DNA of 64,000 bases, taken from assembly GCA_030427805.1 (NCBI GenBank), contig JAUICP010000001.1:868001-932000 (forward strand), in the 5' to 3' direction. Positions 14,966 to 24,889 of the stretch are shown here, piece after piece. Position 1 is the first letter of the stretch. Every line of letters begins with the position of its first letter. A model generated the notes under the pieces. It was not told where the DNA came from, searched no databases, and saw only the letters and a program-made list of their open reading frames with translations. The position numbers were made by a program, and so were the translations under genes. Source of the DNA: Bdellovibrionia bacterium (GTDB lineage Bacteria; Bdellovibrionota; Bdellovibrionia; Bdellovibrionales; JAGQZY01).

Positions 14966-15495
14966 GTTTAGTTAAGCAACCGAGTTCGACGTCTTCGTGG
15001 TATTTGCCCGGTATTTTTAAAGGAATGCTTCTTACCTTTTTTGGAAAGATGTTAAAAAATCTTTTCAACAAAAAAGATATGATCACCTTGAATTATCCCG
15101 AAGAAAAATATCAGTACTCACCACGTTTCAAGGGGAATCACGTTCTTACGGTAAACAAAGAAGGGGATATTCGTTGTACGGCTTGTATGCTCTGTGCGAC
15201 GGCCTGTCCGGCTGATTGTATATCTATTGTTGCTTCAGAAGATGAAGACCCCACGGTCGAAAAATATCCAATTTCATACGAAATCGATATTCTTCGCTGT
15301 GTATTTTGTGGGATGTGTGAAGAGGCTTGTCCTGTAGATGCCGTTCGCATGGGACCAGAGTGGCAAACACCTGGTGTTAATGGGTCACAGTTTGTTTATG
15401 ATAAAGAACATCTTGCCTACCGACCACAACTCAATGGCGGAAAAGGTATTCAGTCTTTGTGTGAGGATACCGAACGCCATAACTTCGGAATCTAG
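14962..15495 (+). CDS. nuoI: NADH-quinone oxidoreductase subunit I
   Basis: 177 residues. NuoI holds clusters N6a and N6b in two ferredoxin-like motifs, both seen here: CTACMLCATACPADC and CVFCGMCEEACPVDA. An N-terminal amphipathic segment (about 12-45) would lie on the membrane surface. The ATG overlaps the nuoG stop (ATGA). It closes the operon; the membrane subunits A, H, J, K, L, M and N are not in the window. Its stop overlaps that of the convergent next gene by four bases. Confidence 0.95.
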   Translation: MSLVKQPSSTSSWYLPGIFKGMLLTFFGKMLKNLFNKKDMITLNYPEEKYQYSPRFKGNHVLTVNKEGDIRCTACMLCATACPADCISIVASEDEDPTVEKYPISYEIDILRCVFCGMCEEACPVDAVRMGPEWQTPGVNGSQFVYDKEHLAYRPQLNGGKGIQSLCEDTERHNFGI

Positions 15496-17564
15496 TAGTG
15501 AACGATGGCGTCGGGGGGAGTTCCACCTGGATTCCCCTTTAGGAGATGCTGTCCGACGGCTCTTGCATCGGCTTCCCAGCCGTCTCCCAAATAAAGCTTA
15601 AAGCCAAAGTACTCATTTAATAATCCAATAATACTGGAAGCACAGGAGACCTCTTCGACATTGAGGACTCCTGAAGTAACTTCGTGCTCAACGGGCCAGG
15701 GGACACCGTTTGGAGCCATGGCAAATCGTCTTCCAAGAATTTCGAAGTAATTTAAGCCTTCGTCTGTACTTGAAATTCTCATGTCTTTCCAGTCGGGTTC
15801 CGTCGCAAAGGGAGGGAATGAGTGTTCGTTAAAACCGACTACAAATCGATCCATGAGGGCTTGCAGGGCTTTAATTTTTTCTGGCGACCTTACAAACAGA
15901 AAGCCAGTTCGATCACCGGGGCGAACTTCAAAGACATTGCCTTTTCCCACTTGTCCTCCAGAAAAATCGGGATTGAAGTCGTAGCGCTTATCGCCGATCC
16001 GAACCACGAGGTGATCATATTCGAGACTTCGTTGGTGACTGACAACAACTTCAAAACTTGAATCCCGTAACTCAAGGTAAGTGTCATCCGAATTACTTTC
16101 TCGATCGAGTTTTACGTGGGGGATGGGGTTCGACTCAGTTTGAGGTTCGGCACTCTGTTCGTTTTCTACGTCGACTTTTTGAAGTTTTGAGATCAAACTG
16201 TAAGCAGTTAATTCGACCTCAGAGTCGCCTCTGAGGGTATTTTTCCAGTGATTAGTAAACAACTCGCCGATGCCGAGTTCAAAAGCCCACTGACTGATGG
16301 CAATTTGCAGTCCGCGAATGGTGTCACCGTCTATTTGTGCGTTAGAACTTGAGTTTGAGAGTTCAATGTATTTTTCAACTCTTTTAATGTAATTAGATCG
16401 GGCCAATTCAATTCTTATATGCATAGACTCTTTTTGCCGTTTCGGAAGCTCGAGAATGAGTGGGTGTAATTCTAAGGCTCGCAAAGGAAGAAGAAAGCGC
16501 TGGCTAATGGGAGCACCACCGCCTTCAGGGAAATCGAACAAGTAGAAATCCGGGTCTTTGTCATAGAATTCTCTAACTTTTTCTACGAATTGCCCCCAAG
16601 GTCTCCGACCCAATCGGGAGGATTCATTGAAAGGAATTTCGGTAAAAATTTCGGTACTAATGAGTGGTGAGTTTTCAAATTTCTTAAACTGTCCTAGCCC
16701 AGCATCCGAAAGTAATAGGTTTCTAAGCTCGAAGACATGCTCGTCTATAGGTTTGCCTCTTTTGTGAAATTGTCTGAGTTCAAAGCCCACTCGCGATGGT
16801 CCGTAAATATCCCCTCTTAATATTGAGCCATAAACGATTCGAGAGGTTCCCAGTTTAAGTAGGTCTCGACGGCTGAGTGCTCGTTCTTCGTTATTGATAT
16901 ACATTTGTCGATCGCGGTCAGAAAGTGGACCGAGGGAGTAGTTACTCAGATTGAGTCCTGGCGTTCGCTTTAGGGGTTCCCCCAGATATTTTTGAAATCC
17001 GACCTCGAGAGATGTAAATTGCGCCATATCTGCAGAAAAAATACTGTATCCGGCAGACCCTTCGAGGGCGTCTAACCTTTTTCCTGCGAGGCTGACATGG
17101 GCTTGGAGAGAGGCGACGCCAATGGTGTTTTCTAGTAAAAGTCGAGCTATTCGATATTCGCTATAGTAGTTAAAAACGAAGCCATTGAGTTCGACATTAC
17201 CATTTCCTTCTGACTCAAGAGTGTCTTGTAAAAACTCGGGGCTCGTACTGAGTTTCTTGTAAATGACTTTATGGTATGCATACCGCGCATTCGCTTCTGA
17301 TTCTTTTGCAATCTGGAGCTTTTTTTCTCGGGAGTATGTACGCCAATCGGATTCAGATATCTCCACGGGACGGTAATAATTAATGATATTTGGGTTTTCG
17401 GTAATGTTTATTTCCGCCTCAAGGCCATAAGCTAATTCGCTAGGTGATTCAAAGTGGGCTTCGCAATAAAAGGCCTTTGTAGCGCCGCTATATAGACATA
17501 AAGTGACTATAATGAATAGAAAGTGCAGAGAGAAGGATTGCTTTGCAGAGTTAGAGGCTTTCAT
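15492..17564 (-). CDS. Large exported protein, possible amidoligase-like fold
   Basis: 690 residues. A signal peptide ends near GATKAF, followed by CEAHFESPS, which resembles the mature N-terminus of the 1005-residue protein encoded just upstream (CESRFDLPS), so the two are probably paralogues. Three spots recall glutamine-synthetase/GCS-fold amidoligases: GLEAEIN near residue 45, a strand SLQAHVSL near 155, and FELRQFHK plus FELRNLL near 260-285. This is weak by-eye similarity, and a periplasmic location is odd for an ATP-using enzyme. The C-terminal 150 residues have a single conserved-looking CASS. GAGGAGAG lies upstream of the ATG. Third of three giant exported genes in a row, overlapping the previous gene by 14 bases. 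Confidence 0.7.
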   Translation of the reverse strand: MKASNSAKQSFSLHFLFIIVTLCLYSGATKAFYCEAHFESPSELAYGLEAEINITENPNIINYYRPVEISESDWRTYSREKKLQIAKESEANARYAYHKVIYKKLSTSPEFLQDTLESEGNGNVELNGFVFNYYSEYRIARLLLENTIGVASLQAHVSLAGKRLDALEGSAGYSIFSADMAQFTSLEVGFQKYLGEPLKRTPGLNLSNYSLGPLSDRDRQMYINNEERALSRRDLLKLGTSRIVYGSILRGDIYGPSRVGFELRQFHKRGKPIDEHVFELRNLLLSDAGLGQFKKFENSPLISTEIFTEIPFNESSRLGRRPWGQFVEKVREFYDKDPDFYLFDFPEGGGAPISQRFLLPLRALELHPLILELPKRQKESMHIRIELARSNYIKRVEKYIELSNSSSNAQIDGDTIRGLQIAISQWAFELGIGELFTNHWKNTLRGDSEVELTAYSLISKLQKVDVENEQSAEPQTESNPIPHVKLDRESNSDDTYLELRDSSFEVVVSHQRSLEYDHLVVRIGDKRYDFNPDFSGGQVGKGNVFEVRPGDRTGFLFVRSPEKIKALQALMDRFVVGFNEHSFPPFATEPDWKDMRISSTDEGLNYFEILGRRFAMAPNGVPWPVEHEVTSGVLNVEEVSCASSIIGLLNEYFGFKLYLGDGWEADARAVGQHLLKGNPGGTPPDAIVHY

Positions 17565-20500
17565 TATCTCTCCTCATTAATGTCAAAGACATATAGTTTT
17601 CAGCGCCCTTTAAGAGGAGGTCACCGTCTCTTGTGTTATTAGAAAATACGGGGGTTAATAGGGTAGTGAGTCTTTGTATAAGGCTGTCTTTTGTGCTCGT
17701 GCTGGGATTTTTAGACCATTCTTGCAGGTAGCGATCGCGAAAATATCTCGCTACTTCTGATCGAGACATTTGAGCAATATTTCTTTTAATCCAAAGATCT
17801 GTTTCTTCTTGGAGTGAAAGGAGGTAGGTCTTCTGGGCCTCTAATCCTTGGTCGAAAATACCTTCAAGCTTTTCAATCAGTGGGGTTTGTCGTCCTTGAA
17901 GATTCGATTTAATAAGGTTGGAACGAACCGGAAATATTTCTGGTAGAAGTGAGCCACTCGAAGCACCAAAGTTAAATTCGAGTATTACATATTGACCGCT
18001 AGCAAGTTGCGCGACATCGGCTCCGCCTGACAACATTTTTATTTCAGTGGGCGCTTGAGCAAAAAACTGATTTAATGCAGCCTTAGCCTCGTCGGCTTCC
18101 ACCGGATAGAATTCGTGGCTGTAACGTAAATTCGAGGCGATCGCCTGGCCGTAGAGAAAGTCGACTCGAAACTCAAGTGGAAATCCAAGTTGGGTCGATG
18201 CCAATTGCACTCGCTCTTGAACTAAGATTTGATCGTGGTCCATCAAAAGCTGAACGATGAATTTAAGTCCAGAGGCGTAATGCTGGTTTTCAATGACACT
18301 CTTTAGGTCTAAGGTTTCTTCTAGATTTCGTCGTCCTGAAAGGTAGCGCTCCAAGTGATGAATGAATTCCCATACCAAGTAATCTTCATTTTGCGAGAAG
18401 CTAGTCACTTGATTTCCGAGGTCGCCAGTGGCCCATTCGTCGAAGTTTTTCAAAAAGGCACCGCGGGGAAACTGACCATTGATAGATGTGAAAAGATCTC
18501 GTACAAGTCCAGTCAGTAATGGCTTGAGTTCTTCGAAATTGCGACTGGATATTAAAGCTAGAGCGTGATTTCGAGCTCTTTCAAATCGGGTGAAGGGCTC
18601 CTCGTTTTCGTCGAAAAAACGTTTTAGGCTGGTACTTTTAGGCATCGCTCCCGGTAAGATGGCTTCGACGAGCTGTCTTTCGGCATCCTTATCATCCCTT
18701 AGAATATCTTGAAAGCTTAAGTACCCTAGATGAGGGTTGAAGCTCCCGCGGACGGCATTGAGATTTCGCACTTCTTTTCCGGCAAAAGAGGGATGTAGAA
18801 CAACCCCCGGAACCTCTAGAGGAGTCCCGGTGTTTCTATAAATTACATTTTCACCATACATGAGGCGGTCAGAATCTTCCTCTTCGATGCTTTGTGGCGG
18901 GTTTTTGTGGACATAGGTATATTGACCATACCTGAGGGAGGCTTCTCGAAGCTCAGAGAGAGAAACCCAGTCATGGTTTTCGGGAAGTTGAATTCCACTT
19001 AAGCTGAGTCCCTGATTTTCTCCCTCAATTGTGAAGGACCCACGGGCCATAAGATCGGCGAGTAAGTCATCTCTTGGTGTACCGTCCGGTTTGAGAAGGG
19101 AAGTACTTGGTGACTCTAGTGTTACTGAGAAAAATTCGGCGACTTCGCGACTAAAAAGAAGGGGGCGGTGAAAGTTGAATTCCAAAACTCCATCGGAGTT
19201 ACCCGATATCAGGCTAAGACTAGAAGCGTCGCCACTGTAGCCTCCAAACGGAAAGTTACCACTTTCTTCGACAAATACACTTTGATTCATAATTGTCGTA
19301 TGAAAGTTATCTTCGAATGCTTTTCTTACGTGTACTAGAGCTGTATCTCCATGTTCCCCATAAATGGTGGCAAACATAGCACGTTTGCGAACACGAGAAT
19401 CGTTGGCAGCGGTTAGAAGTTGGTCTTGGTCGTCGTAAATAAAGTGAATAAGAAAGGGTGCGTAGTGATCAACAAGGGGAACCTCGTTGAACATAGAAAA
19501 GGGAAAGACAAATACATGGGGATCGACCCTTCTCGATGCACGATCTATAACCGCATCGGGTGTCTTAAGGTATTTTGCATATTTTTCTCGGAAACCAACC
19601 AGGTCATCGAGTGATTCACTGAAGGTCAATGGGCTGTAATCGGCCCCTTCACTATTTGGTAAACCAAAATGAAGATTTGAAATTTTATTGAGTAAGAGTT
19701 CGAGATACCGATGACTCAAGGAAGAATCGAGCAGGTAAAACTTCGGAGCAATACAGTCTTGAGATGTGTTGATTTGAATTGATAAAGTCGTATCATTAAT
19801 AATTTTATCGACTAAGGGTTCAGCTCGATCCGTTATGACGACAGGATTCAGTCCCGTCCCAAATTGTAGAAAGAGCTGTTTCCCGCGAAAACCAACTTGC
19901 TTCAGTTTTTCCAGGTTTCGCTCTCTGATATTGTTACCTGTTTCGGGCTTTCCCGTAAAAAGAACGACCTCGGCGGGTCCATCTTCGTCTAAGAAATTCC
20001 TTCTCTTTTTAGTGAGGCGAAGCACGTACTTTCTTCTAAAATCATCGTATTGGACATCTCTTTTTTCGTGAAGAATATTGATGTTAGAAAGATCCTTGGG
20101 GCTGTACTTTTCTATCAAAGAAAATAACTTGAGGTAAGTTTGCCGACTTCTCTCTGGAGTTCTGAACCATACTTGCGCGCCAGTACTTGCGGGAATGATG
20201 GCATGGAGAACGAGAGTGTAGAGGGGAATGTTTGTTGAGCCATAGATAGCAATATTTTTTAGCCCATTGATGCGCTTGAGGTAGTGGAGTTCGTGGTATT
20301 GAACACCTCGAAGTGTTTTTATGGCTTGTTCGACTTCGTACTCTGCCCCCTTGTAATTGTCGATTTCAACGAGAGCGTTTATGAATTCTTGTCTGTGAGT
20401 TTCGATGAGGTCGGCTAGAGAGTTAAAATATTCTGAATTGATCGATATTTTAGTTGATGATGGTAAGTCGAATCGAGATTCACATAGGTTGAGTTCAGCC

Positions 20501-20568
20501 CTCGCATGACTATGCATGAGCCATAGAATGAGACAAATCTGAGCTAGAGAGCGCATAATTGAAGTCAT
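17551..20568 (-). CDS. Giant exported protein, lineage-restricted
   Basis: 1005 residues from the ATG at 20568, chosen because the only earlier start is a GTG 66 bases upstream that would spoil the signal peptide. The signal is LAQICLILWLMHSHARAE. The mature N-terminus CESRFDLPS is like that of the downstream 690-residue protein. No catalytic motif is recognised. It contains two similar phrases, VLEFNFHR and ILEFNFGA, and EVRNLNA, which recalls ELRNLLL in the neighbour. Probably periplasmic or surface exposed. It overlaps the downstream gene by 14 bases, so the two are co-expressed and may form a complex. Confidence 0.7.
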   Translation of the reverse strand: MTSIMRSLAQICLILWLMHSHARAELNLCESRFDLPSSTKISINSEYFNSLADLIETHRQEFINALVEIDNYKGAEYEVEQAIKTLRGVQYHELHYLKRINGLKNIAIYGSTNIPLYTLVLHAIIPASTGAQVWFRTPERSRQTYLKLFSLIEKYSPKDLSNINILHEKRDVQYDDFRRKYVLRLTKKRRNFLDEDGPAEVVLFTGKPETGNNIRERNLEKLKQVGFRGKQLFLQFGTGLNPVVITDRAEPLVDKIINDTTLSIQINTSQDCIAPKFYLLDSSLSHRYLELLLNKISNLHFGLPNSEGADYSPLTFSESLDDLVGFREKYAKYLKTPDAVIDRASRRVDPHVFVFPFSMFNEVPLVDHYAPFLIHFIYDDQDQLLTAANDSRVRKRAMFATIYGEHGDTALVHVRKAFEDNFHTTIMNQSVFVEESGNFPFGGYSGDASSLSLISGNSDGVLEFNFHRPLLFSREVAEFFSVTLESPSTSLLKPDGTPRDDLLADLMARGSFTIEGENQGLSLSGIQLPENHDWVSLSELREASLRYGQYTYVHKNPPQSIEEEDSDRLMYGENVIYRNTGTPLEVPGVVLHPSFAGKEVRNLNAVRGSFNPHLGYLSFQDILRDDKDAERQLVEAILPGAMPKSTSLKRFFDENEEPFTRFERARNHALALISSRNFEELKPLLTGLVRDLFTSINGQFPRGAFLKNFDEWATGDLGNQVTSFSQNEDYLVWEFIHHLERYLSGRRNLEETLDLKSVIENQHYASGLKFIVQLLMDHDQILVQERVQLASTQLGFPLEFRVDFLYGQAIASNLRYSHEFYPVEADEAKAALNQFFAQAPTEIKMLSGGADVAQLASGQYVILEFNFGASSGSLLPEIFPVRSNLIKSNLQGRQTPLIEKLEGIFDQGLEAQKTYLLSLQEETDLWIKRNIAQMSRSEVARYFRDRYLQEWSKNPSTSTKDSLIQRLTTLLTPVFSNNTRDGDLLLKGAENYMSLTLMRRDNESL

Positions 20569-20671
20569 TAAAGTAATTATTCCCGGTACCAAACGTTGAG
20601 TGCGATCTGAGGAGTTTAAGTCCTCTCGGCGCACTACTAATTAAACAACTACTGAAGGGAATTGCAGGTTG

Positions 20672-20705: not shown

Positions 20706-23700
20706 TTAATTTCCGCGACTGAATAGATTGAAGAAGCGCTCCATGGCCCCTCGAGTTCGGTGCTTGAGAGCCATTTTCTCAGCATGGTCGATAATGAGTT
20801 TAATTTCACCTGTGCTAAACATCCGATCGCCTGCGAGATTAGCGTCGGTGATGGCATCAACGGCTTCGGCAACTCGAGGATTGTTGTCGGGCAGAAGCTC
20901 ATCTCTAAGATTTCGCGCGGCCCGTTTAATAGATCGAGGACTGGCGTTTTTGTTAACATTGAGAATTTTGAAAGCTTTCGACCCCTGAAAGTTATTAACC
21001 ACAGAGTTACTTCGCAGTCTTTGCTGGGCAATACGTATGTATCCTTTTTGGCTCTTATACCATTTTACTTTTCTAGCATTGGTGCCCATTCGACCGAATG
21101 CGCTCATTCTTCCCACACGCCCCATGCTGGATAAGCCATAAAAAGAAAAAGCGGCAAGCACAACTTCGACAGCGGCTCCCGTTCCTGACATTAGATTCTC
21201 AATAGAATAAAAGAGATCTTCGGCTTCACAAAGCATTGAGTCTTGCATTCCACCACTGGTACACCTTTGCAGGGTATTGTTAAATTGCCAAAGACTTGCA
21301 AAGTTGGCAGTAAAAAATCGCGCTCCTGCTTGTTGGTTCGCTCTTTCATCAGTCACATATTGAAAAGCCACACAGTAATCGCCACGAGTCTCTCGAGGTG
21401 CCGTTTCAATAATTTGTGCAGCCGTGGATTTAAAGTCTGAAAGGGCGTAGAGATTGCCGCCATTTTCGTTTTGCGACTGAAGTTCTTGGTTGAGCTCAAA
21501 TATGGTTTCTTTTGCGATTCGAAGGCCTCGCTTCATGTCCTCTCGCAGAACCTGAATTTCGTCTCCGACCTGCGGGCGAGCGACTTCTTCGGGGCGATCC
21601 TCGACGGCAACTTCATCCTCTACCTCTTCGGCAGTTTCCTCAGCAGTTTCTTCGGGAAGTCCTTCGGCCACAGCTGGTGCAATATCACTACTGACAGGGC
21701 CGTTCATATAGCGTAAGACTGGATATCTGTAGAAGATACTCTTGTAGCCTTCTTTGGCCGCTAAAGTAACATCTTCGATGATATCCTCAATGACGTGATC
21801 GATTTCATTTTCAGATTCAAGGTCGAGACCGGCACAGTCTGTCTCTGCCACTCTTTGGGCCTCAAGGGCTTCGGCTGCTTCTGCCTGGGCCTCTTCGTCC
21901 ATTTCGGCCCAACCTTCGATGGCTTCGAGATCTTCTTGAGTAATTTCAACTTGTATGGGTCTGCGAAATTGACAGGTTCCTTCGGTCAATGCGAGTTGTG
22001 CTTGTAATTTACTTAAAAAAGCTCTTACGGCTAGTGATTTCTCATCTTCACTCATCGCACCCATTTGACCAAATCGACCTCTCTCGCCTGCAATGGTTGG
22101 GGCGAGAGTTAAAGTGCCAGTGAAAACATCTAAGAAGCCATCCCCTTGATGAATGTCGTGGGAGAGTTCGTCGGGTAAAAGACAGCTCGGTTCTGCAATT
22201 AATCTTTCGGCAAAGCTATTTAGGGCGTCATCGGCCAGAGATTGATTTTCGATAAGGTGACTTAAAAAGTCAGAAACAGAATTACAACTCGTATTCATTT
22301 CAATTTGCGCCATCCCATTGAGAATTCGCATGGCTTTGTAAAAAGCGAGATAGGACTGTTCCTTGGGGCGAACACGTTCGCAAGACTGGGCGTCATTGTT
22401 TTCATAACAACTCACAAAATCCAAATGGGTTTGATCGGCGGCATTAGTAGCGCGCAAAGTGACTTCTAATAAGTAGTCATTGACGAGTGTGTAGAGTTCA
22501 AGACCCGCGTACATCATGGCACTAATGCGATCATTATGAGTCGGCATATTGGGATTATATCCGTCGAGGTCTTCTTCAGAAACGCCGTAATGTGCGAGCT
22601 CATCCGTCGTATAGCCATCCCACTGATGCCGTTCCCAGCTGGGGACAGTATGCATAGTTTCTAAGTCGACTCTCATTGCATGGGGAACTCGATCTTGGGG
22701 CTCGCGGAGAGACCAAAAAATTCGATCGAATGGAACGTGCTCGGTATTAATGAGGTCTCTCGAATCAAAGGTATAGGCATTGCCTAAGCGTTGGTCTTGG
22801 TAATAGGTCATTAGAGGTTCCGCATCAGTACTCTGGCAGACTGGAAATTGATCGGCGATTTCAAGTTCGTTGTACTGAAGGGGGCGCTTTTCTATATAAT
22901 CATAGAGGTACTCAAAGTGAGTTTGCTTCTGCGTAAGGATGTGAACAAAGTCTTCTCGTGCAGTTGCATTGTAGGGGCCTGATCCACCGAGATAGCGTTG
23001 ACTAATTTGACTCATAAGCCCTGGGCCCGCTTCGACAGGAGTGGCATCGGCGTTCGGTAGATATTGTCGGTAGAGTTCGTTGTAGTAATCGATATCTTGA
23101 CCGAGCCTTGGCAGAGCAATTCCGTTTCCAGAAAAATGATATTCAGGCAAATAAGTCTCGCTGGCAATTTCTGGGTCGAGTTCCACCGTTTCCGGGTCAG
23201 CGCCATCAATTATTTGATCAACGATTTCAGGGGCGTCGGCAACTGTCGCATCTGGAGCAGCAACTTCCTCTTCGGCAGGAGCGTAGAGTTCGGGATGGGT
23301 ATCCTCCACTTCCACTTCTTCTTCGGGACCCGCTGGTTCAGGCATTCGCTCAGACCGGCTCGGTTCCTCTTCTTCTTCGAGAGGATCTGTTTCGACAAGA
23401 GAAGCGTCGGGATCATATTCAACAACATCCTCTTCAATAACTTCTGGCTCAGGGGTGGGGTGAGTTTCAGCAGCTTCGCGAACTCGTCTTAAGCTATCGA
23501 GGTCTTCATCCACAGGAGTGATTCCAGCGGTGGCATCTACCGGAGAGTCGGAGAGGAATTCGCTTTCTTCTTGAGGGGCAATTTCTTCCTCTTCATTTTC
23601 CTCTGGTACCTCTTCGTCTTCTTCGACTTCTGAGGCCCTGAGATCTTCCACAGAGATGATTTCATCTGGATCGAGTAACAATCGTTTATGGGGACGCAAT

Positions 23701-23774
23701 TTGCCCTCACAAGCTGTGAACAGGGGCAAAAAGGCCAATAAAATCAGGGTGTAAAACATTTTACTCGATCTCAT
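20706..23774 (-). CDS. Giant lipoprotein with acidic N-terminus and degenerate J-like C-terminus
   Basis: 1022 residues from the ATG at 23774. A lipobox LPLFTAC gives a lipidated Cys near residue 22; two earlier in-frame starts only lengthen the signal. Residues about 35-200 are extremely rich in Glu, Asp, Pro and Val, likely a disordered spacer. A Cys-containing globular part follows (about 205-660), another acidic segment near 690-720, and a short hydrophobic stretch VVLAAFSFYGLSSM near 870. The last about 90 residues begin FKILNVNKNASPRSIKRA, which reads like helices I-II of a DnaJ J-domain, but the HPD tripeptide is LPD. First of three co-directional giant exported genes. Function unknown. 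Confidence 0.75.
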   Translation of the reverse strand: MRSSKMFYTLILLAFLPLFTACEGKLRPHKRLLLDPDEIISVEDLRASEVEEDEEVPEENEEEEIAPQEESEFLSDSPVDATAGITPVDEDLDSLRRVREAAETHPTPEPEVIEEDVVEYDPDASLVETDPLEEEEEPSRSERMPEPAGPEEEVEVEDTHPELYAPAEEEVAAPDATVADAPEIVDQIIDGADPETVELDPEIASETYLPEYHFSGNGIALPRLGQDIDYYNELYRQYLPNADATPVEAGPGLMSQISQRYLGGSGPYNATAREDFVHILTQKQTHFEYLYDYIEKRPLQYNELEIADQFPVCQSTDAEPLMTYYQDQRLGNAYTFDSRDLINTEHVPFDRIFWSLREPQDRVPHAMRVDLETMHTVPSWERHQWDGYTTDELAHYGVSEEDLDGYNPNMPTHNDRISAMMYAGLELYTLVNDYLLEVTLRATNAADQTHLDFVSCYENNDAQSCERVRPKEQSYLAFYKAMRILNGMAQIEMNTSCNSVSDFLSHLIENQSLADDALNSFAERLIAEPSCLLPDELSHDIHQGDGFLDVFTGTLTLAPTIAGERGRFGQMGAMSEDEKSLAVRAFLSKLQAQLALTEGTCQFRRPIQVEITQEDLEAIEGWAEMDEEAQAEAAEALEAQRVAETDCAGLDLESENEIDHVIEDIIEDVTLAAKEGYKSIFYRYPVLRYMNGPVSSDIAPAVAEGLPEETAEETAEEVEDEVAVEDRPEEVARPQVGDEIQVLREDMKRGLRIAKETIFELNQELQSQNENGGNLYALSDFKSTAAQIIETAPRETRGDYCVAFQYVTDERANQQAGARFFTANFASLWQFNNTLQRCTSGGMQDSMLCEAEDLFYSIENLMSGTGAAVEVVLAAFSFYGLSSMGRVGRMSAFGRMGTNARKVKWYKSQKGYIRIAQQRLRSNSVVNNFQGSKAFKILNVNKNASPRSIKRAARNLRDELLPDNNPRVAEAVDAITDANLAGDRMFSTGEIKLIIDHAEKMALKHRTRGAMERFFNLFSRGN

Positions 23775-23917: not shown

Positions 23918-24889
23918 ATGCTGATTAACTGGCTAGATTCCGAGCGATGGTACGACCTCAACGAAACATTGGGCAAAAAATTAAGTCGCCCAGAGACTGA
24001 AGAGGTTAAAGTATTCGCCGGCCTTTCTATTGGACTTCTTGAAGTCTTACTTGGCCTCATTCGCCTGTTTCCCCATCGAAAACTCATTGCTATTGATCGA
24101 AAGCAGTCCCCTTTTTTTGAAGCCATTGCTATCGAAGCGTCAAAGCAGGGTCTAAAAGTACAAGACCTCTCTGCACTTCAAGGCGAGGAGTTAAGCGGTT
24201 TTTTTAAAGACAATAAAAGAGACCTTTTACTCAGTCTCTGCTCTTCAGCGGATCCTTGCACGTCTGAAATTTTCGATACCTCAAGGGACTATCAGAAACT
24301 CAGTAACGACCATAGGATTTTCTTTGTTCAGACCCATCACTTTTGGGAAGAGCCATTGGACTCTGTAAAAATCGGGACCCGCGAAGTTCATATGTTTTCA
24401 TACGGAACCGAAAGCTGTATTGGTCTCATGGGCAAGAAGTTACAGATAAAGGATGTATTGCACCCAGCTTTGGATTGGTCAAAGAGCCACTTAAGTGATT
24501 GGATTGCATTTTTGTCCGACTGCCAGCAAGATCGGCAAAAGGTAGAATCTTTTGAAGCTCAATTGCAGGATCATAAACTTCTCAAGGACGACTCCCTTCG
24601 TTTTTATGATCGGGCCCTTCTCAGTTTTGAAAGGGTGGATGGCTCATTTTTAATTTCTGAACTTCAAAAAAAGTACCCAGACACACAAATTGAGACGACG
24701 TCTTTATGTCAGTGGAAAACTCCAAGACTATGGGACTCTTTATTAAAGCGTGGATATAGTGAGACTCAGTTGCGGGGATTGTTAGTCATACCCCTTGCGG
24801 AAGTGAGCGATCAGCTCGCCAGTGAATTACAAGGGAGCTATCAAAACTGTCTCGGGCGACAGGGCCTTACTGACTCAGTTCAGCCTTGA
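23918..24889 (+). CDS. Uncharacterised protein, possible degenerate PLP-enzyme fold
   Basis: 323 residues, no signal peptide. AAAGGA six bases upstream supports the ATG. The layout loosely follows fold-type I PLP enzymes: a Gly-containing early segment, KLIAIDRKQSPFFEAIAIEA (substrate loop position), DLLLSLCSSADPCT (position of the usual NP-T motif), and a C-terminal subdomain ending RGYSETQLRGLLVIPL. The place of the PLP lysine reads SYGTES with no Lys, so if homologous it is probably inactive. Low-confidence idea; otherwise hypothetical. Convergent with the sugar-nucleotide operon, with a 23-base overlap at the 3' ends. Confidence 0.65.
   Translation: MLINWLDSERWYDLNETLGKKLSRPETEEVKVFAGLSIGLLEVLLGLIRLFPHRKLIAIDRKQSPFFEAIAIEASKQGLKVQDLSALQGEELSGFFKDNKRDLLLSLCSSADPCTSEIFDTSRDYQKLSNDHRIFFVQTHHFWEEPLDSVKIGTREVHMFSYGTESCIGLMGKKLQIKDVLHPALDWSKSHLSDWIAFLSDCQQDRQKVESFEAQLQDHKLLKDDSLRFYDRALLSFERVDGSFLISELQKKYPDTQIETTSLCQWKTPRLWDSLLKRGYSETQLRGLLVIPLAEVSDQLASELQGSYQNCLGRQGLTDSVQP

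Follow-up and report, generated by a model that had tools for sequence, protein, structure and literature searches.

A J-domain-like segment without the HPD motif at the C-terminus of a Bdellovibrionia lipoprotein

What defines a J-domain is a single task, the stimulation of Hsp70, and HPD is its key motif. In the 64,000 nucleotides of DNA from a Bdellovibrionia bacterium that we analysed (the whole stretch, hereafter the window), a lipoprotein of 1022 residues ends in a segment that resembles a J-domain but has lost the histidine of that motif. We consider it probable that this tail is an exported, HPD-less helical contact module, derived from a J-domain and not serving Hsp70. On this reading, residues ~932–985 would derive from a J-domain whose Hsp70-activating function has been lost, and the J-like segment and the helical tail behind it would form a small all-helical module, carried by a lipoprotein anchored through its lipidated Cys22. 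The gene and its parts are laid out as follows.

20706..23774, minus strand: gene of the 1022-residue lipoprotein (P0001), an open frame with an ATG before the lipoprotein signal and an orthologue 94% identical
23709..23774, minus strand: lipoprotein signal peptide, residues 1–22, lipobox LFTA followed by the cysteine, read in the sequence and the same in the orthologue
21123..21179, minus strand: moderately hydrophobic stretch, residues 866–884, with one Glu (Kyte–Doolittle mean 1.42 over 19 residues)
20979..21122, minus strand: basic linker, residues 885–932, joining the hydrophobic stretch to the J-like segment (residue counts)
20829..20975, minus strand: J-like segment, residues 934–982, with helix I, helix II, loop and start of helix III (Pfam DnaJ, local J profiles, phmmer against PDB)
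20886..20894, minus strand: LPD in place of HPD, residues 961–963; LPE in the orthologue (sequence, orthologue comparison)
20709..20828, minus strand: C-terminal helical tail, residues 983–1022, with zero amino-acid changes between the two species (codon comparison, model)

The first-pass annotation had placed the resemblance at residues 935–983 (20826–20972 on the minus strand, FKILNVNKNASPRSIKRA...LLPDNNP), with frame, sequence and coordinates that proved correct, and the likeness itself holds beyond chance by Pfam, by phmmer against PDB and by local profiles with shuffles. The Pfam DnaJ model (PF00226) matches residues 934–974 over 41 of 63 positions with E = 2.9e-4, its 21.3 bits falling short of the cut-off (27.8 bits); when the DnaJ model is run on the genome translated in six frames, the segment reaches 25.8 bits (E = 5e-5), the weakest of eight matches there. 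The best NCBIfam matches are likewise DnaJ-type models (E 0.005–0.05, far below their cut-offs), and phmmer against PDB chains returned two sequences at E ≤ 1, both of them DnaJC5 J-domains (E 0.016 and 0.046). A first local profile, built from 25 HPD-bearing J-domains of this and related genomes, scored the whole protein at 26.1 bits and its last 193 residues at 28.7 bits, 20,000 shuffles of the latter scoring 10.8 bits at best; with a profile of 63 DnaJ-type domains the corresponding scores were 22.7 and 25.5 bits, and a separate set of shuffles peaked at 8.8. Fifteen of the 37 columns that are at least 80% conserved in those 63 domains are identical here, as are 14 of the 30 conserved J columns that lie before residue 983. 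The match runs through helices I and II and the loop into helix III (residues 934–981) and leaves the remainder unmatched; helix III keeps some of its hydrophobic positions, and then the likeness ends. From the sequence, common descent of the segment with the J-domain is likely.

Structure prediction speaks partly for and partly against the earlier proposal of a J-fold. AlphaFold models of the 194-residue C-terminus and of the last 100 residues were each made from a two-sequence alignment, without any DnaJ, and are close to a single-sequence guess because only two sequences exist. The longer model has a pLDDT of 41.7; the shorter reaches a pLDDT of 71.5 and a pTM of 0.67, with helices predicted at 946–960, 966–981, 988–1000 and 1005–1016 in a block of pLDDT 65–84. 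The first two of these helices coincide in position with helices II and III of a J-domain, in keeping with the proposal; helix I itself does not form, its region being modelled with low confidence, and no J-domain is matched significantly. Foldseek listed many J-domains for the 194-residue model, none below E 0.75, while the best 50 matches listed for the 100-residue model included a single J-domain, 2lgw at E 3.8; none of these is significant. VIA-align 2 placed J-domains at Z ~3 for the longer, low-pLDDT model (5nro_B at Z 3.3, rmsd 3.0, 49 residues aligned). Its top matches for the shorter model were PedB (Z 6.8, rmsd 3.3, 78 aligned) and Tsi6 (Z 6.5, rmsd 3.0, 74 aligned), Z values of a kind often obtained with helical bundles; no J-domain was listed for this model, which we do not count as proof of a different fold.

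These models bear on an alternative that we regard as unlikely, though it retains a real share of our doubt: that the likeness is one of chance or convergence, and a Lys/Arg-rich helical tail forms an ordinary four-helix bundle with no common descent with helices I–II of DnaJ. The better of the two models is indeed a helical bundle without helix I, whose nearest shapes are unrelated helical bundles, designed ones as well as Tsi6 and PedB among them, and the Pfam match is both below its cut-off and limited in length. We leave this share to chance because the segment was singled out from a great deal of sequence, so that no one E-value carries its full weight. Against the alternative stand the shuffles, which fall far below the real score with the 25-domain profile and with the DnaJ-only profile alike, the identity of the matched residues, which are the J signature itself, and the fact that the PDB sequence matches are both J-domains.

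The motif needed to stimulate DnaK is gone, as the first-pass annotation had read it. Where all 63 of the DnaJ-type domains compared carry HPD, the window protein has LPD and its counterpart in a sister species LPE; in addition, the helix II Tyr has become Ala, and the Ala after the conserved helix II Leu has become Arg, while Pro, the N-P after the motif and, in one species, the Asp of HPD remain. Between the two species, residues 933–1022 differ by two amino-acid changes (Asp to Glu in LPD, and T976A) and 29 synonymous ones, giving a dN/dS of 0.013 over the 90 C-terminal codons versus 0.054 for the whole protein; residues 866–932 differ at 8 of 67 positions. With two changes in 90 codons, one of them inside LPD, it follows that the domain has been kept by selection and the motif has not. 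His33 and the helix II aromatic residue are among the contacts to DnaK. With Leu in place of the His, Ala in place of the helix II aromatic and an Asp that can give way to Glu, the module should not stimulate DnaK.

The other end of the protein carries an export signal. Its N-terminus, MRSSKMFYTLILLAFLPLFTAC, reads by eye, in both species, as a signal peptide with the lipobox LFTAC and Cys22, judged by the lipobox consensus, and this signal peptide is the hydropathy peak of the protein. A strongly acidic region follows (residues 31–210, with 66 Asp/Glu versus 7 Lys/Arg), and the lipoprotein ends in a basic, helical C-terminus. The module would thus lie outside the cytoplasm, away from DnaK. 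It is distinctly improbable that residues 866–884 instead cross the inner membrane, leaving the lipidated N-terminus and the acidic part outside and bringing the J-like C-terminus into the cytoplasm near DnaK. The sequence does turn basic after the hydrophobic stretch, and with 11 Lys/Arg versus 1 Asp/Glu in residues 861–932 it has the charge pattern of a cytoplasmic side; the usual Kyte–Doolittle limit for a membrane span is about 1.6, however, and this stretch, with its lower mean and internal Glu, is not a convincing one. The divergence of residues 866–932 between the species also speaks against a span, and HPD is absent whichever side the domain lies on. That the J-like domain still acts on an Hsp70, whether by means of a relaxed motif or because the Hsp70 belongs to prey or to a neighbouring cell, is very improbable: the Pro, the N-P and one species' Asp survive, and the class does contain exported J proteins that keep HPD, but His33 and the helix II aromatic have given way to Leu and Ala, the Asp is Glu in the sister species, and there is no evidence for predation by this organism or for protein delivery from it into cells.

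The lipoprotein was found in this genus only and is therefore, as far as searched, an orphan of the genus. A whole-protein search of 98 relatives found it in two, the genome itself and the sister species; a profile of residues 201–929, run against 290 genomes of the phylum, found it in one, the genome itself; and a search of further genome contigs found a single locus, again in the sister species. The homologue search suggested at the outset accordingly yields one orthologue, from a Bdellovibrionia metagenome-assembled genome of another species of the genus, in which the J similarity is kept and HPD is absent. The last 142 residues find matches at E ≤ 0.5 in 134 of 143 genomes of the class, those outside the genus pointing to proteins of DnaJ type by frame lengths and by the up to 30 loci read, several frames of which were other than the matching one; a plasmid search gave four weak DnaJ matches. 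The gene next to the lipoprotein (23918–24889) is present in three other genomes of the family, and neither the lipoprotein nor any J-profile match was found beside it in the stretches of G002, G003 and G004: nuoI runs directly into this neighbour in G003, only 578 bases separate nuoG from it in G002, and in G004 other genes occupy the place, including a different lipoprotein-like frame of 919 residues.

Downstream of the lipoprotein lie two further genes for exported proteins.

17551..20634, minus strand, ATG probably at 20568: next gene downstream, a 1027-residue exported protein and possible operon partner (Pfam, NCBIfam)
15492..17564, minus strand: third gene, an exported 690-residue protein, overlapping the previous gene by 14 bases (relatives in seven other genomes of the class)

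The order here is thus lipoprotein, 1027-residue protein, 690-residue protein, and on contigs of the sister species the first two genes are adjacent and the last two overlap. The protein of 17551–20568 has a signal peptide and matches Pfam over an aldehyde-dehydrogenase-like region (E 3.4e-15) and, weakly, over an R2K ATP-grasp region (E 0.004); these regions would be cofactor-dependent enzymes outside the cytoplasm. The 690-residue protein has no Pfam match. It and its relatives (L064, L065, L066, L067, L068, L069, L070) share GLEAE/GLEIEY near the start and GFELR/GYELR later on, motifs that presumably recall amidoligases; no copy of the lipoprotein was seen near those relatives in the stretches fetched from the seven other genomes. 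By position only, the two downstream proteins are candidate partners: the module would most likely dock another envelope protein, perhaps these two, by analogy with what the J-like protein Pam16 does. By eye, a Cys-x-x-x-Phe-like motif stands just after the signal peptide in both downstream proteins and in L064, L068 and L070, and near the C-terminus of the exported J proteins L160, L162 and L110.

The first-pass annotation had regarded a J-fold reused for protein contacts at the envelope as unusual. In a survey of the class, J-domains outside the cytoplasm are not unusual, as nine other J proteins, in 8 of the 18 other genomes, have signal-peptide-like starts; what survives of the first-pass interpretation is the J likeness, the loss of His, the lipoprotein signal and a probable use other than Hsp70. 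The survey, made with PF00226, covered 19 genomes, this one (G000) included, and gave 105 matches, 97 of them in the other genomes; among these 97, the 58 weaker were read singly and 7 of the 39 stronger in full, the other stronger ones being screened by script. The calling of signal peptides relied on inspection of the sequences and on hydropathy. HPD-bearing proteins with a signal-peptide-like start are L100, L157, L158, L159, L160, L162, L110 and L131. Searched against 143 genomes, L158 has family members in 11, all of one genus (E ≤ 2.5e-21) and all with a signal-peptide-like start, and a hydropathy screen of fetched loci, which put out 18 proteins, adds L212, L213, L214 and L220. In several Bdellovibrionia families an HPD-bearing J-domain follows closely on a signal peptide (L158:1423–2151, L162:582–1832, L160:1419–2333, L110:2096–3781, L212, L213, L214, L220 and relatives). 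A second exported J-like protein without the His, L154 (927–1997, minus strand), has FPD for HPD. One of the 18 proteins from the hydropathy screen, L004 of the present genome, is more likely of a membrane-anchored cytoplasmic type.

HPD-less J-domains are not rare in this class either. Twenty-two of the 58 weaker matches have no HPD; one of them, L156, is truncated where its contig stops and is left out of the count, and the other 21 comprise 18 members of one cytoplasmic family (197–273 residues), two response-regulator fusions (L127, L151) and the exported L154. With L006 and the window domain, 23 of 104 judged J-domains lack HPD, 19 of them from the one cytoplasmic family, a count that takes the 39 stronger matches as HPD-bearing, as was seen in the 7 read and in the 63 DnaJ-type domains, among which are many, though perhaps not all, of the other stronger matches. 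Proteins of this family (L006, L105, L113–L118, L121, L124, L128, L132–L134 and others) are cytoplasmic, of about 200–270 residues, and have a clear J-domain with SPD, SGD, SSN or the like; the C-terminus of L006 is helix-turn-helix-like.

To our knowledge, Hsp70 is not expected outside the cytoplasm in bacteria. The 31 PF00012 matches in eight genomes resemble DnaK, MreB or a shorter Hsp70-like protein, and no signal peptide was found at the 30 loci read, a count that includes L181, where the wrong frame was read, and L177, where the neighbouring dnaJ was read. More surprising as a lead are the J proteins that are exported and yet bear HPD. No exported Hsp70 was seen in the eight genomes checked, and the target of these J proteins is a testable question. 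It is a long shot, but J-domains may have been exported repeatedly in Bdellovibrionia, the lipoprotein of the window being a late, HPD-less form; the HPD-bearing proteins of predatory species could then act on prey Hsp70 and the HPD-less ones as adaptors.

Set beside known systems, the segment shares with DnaJ/Hsp40 (PF00226) the signature of helix I, helix II and loop, including A-S-x-x-x-I-K-x-A and P-D-x-N-P, but it lacks HPD and the helix II Tyr, its helix III is weak and its helix IV not recognisable, and it is exported where DnaJ/Hsp40 is cytoplasmic. The L006-type cytoplasmic proteins (L006 and 18 others) also have an HPD-less J-domain and occur in the same genomes; theirs, however, is N-terminal, has no signal peptide and fits the J profile far better, over its whole length, and the profile of that family gives the window domain 6.5 bits. 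A profile of the response-regulator-fused J-domains gives it 10.9 bits. The exported J proteins of Bdellovibrionia (L158, L162, L214) resemble the window protein in placing a J-domain outside the cytoplasm, yet theirs lies near the signal peptide and bears HPD in 17 of 17 profiled, whereas the window segment is far C-terminal and HPD-less, so that the order of signal peptide and then HPD-bearing J-domain is not found here. A special kinship to this exported family was considered for a pairwise match to L157 (65 residues, 34%, E 0.002) and dropped, as the family's profiles score 15.7 and 22.7 bits on the window domain versus 25.5 for DnaJ.

Papers joining a J-domain or DnaJ lipoprotein with HPD, periplasm, outer membrane or Bdellovibrio were not found, a weak negative given that few subscription journals were covered. 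In the part of its text available, one paper names two DnaJ homologues and does not mention exported ones (PMC2797640), and a review, by its available part, deals with export of J-domain proteins (PMC9867986). The nearest parallel is the degenerate J-domain of Pam16, which, according to the available text of PMC3174187, has no HPD, cannot stimulate Hsp70 and works by binding a partner. Pam16/Tim16 and the window segment alike are J-derived and HPD-less; the former is mitochondrial and paired with Pam18, and the likeness between the two is known at the level of the J-domain only. If an exported lipoprotein indeed carries a J-derived, HPD-less domain held under strong selection, bacteria would have a parallel to Pam16.
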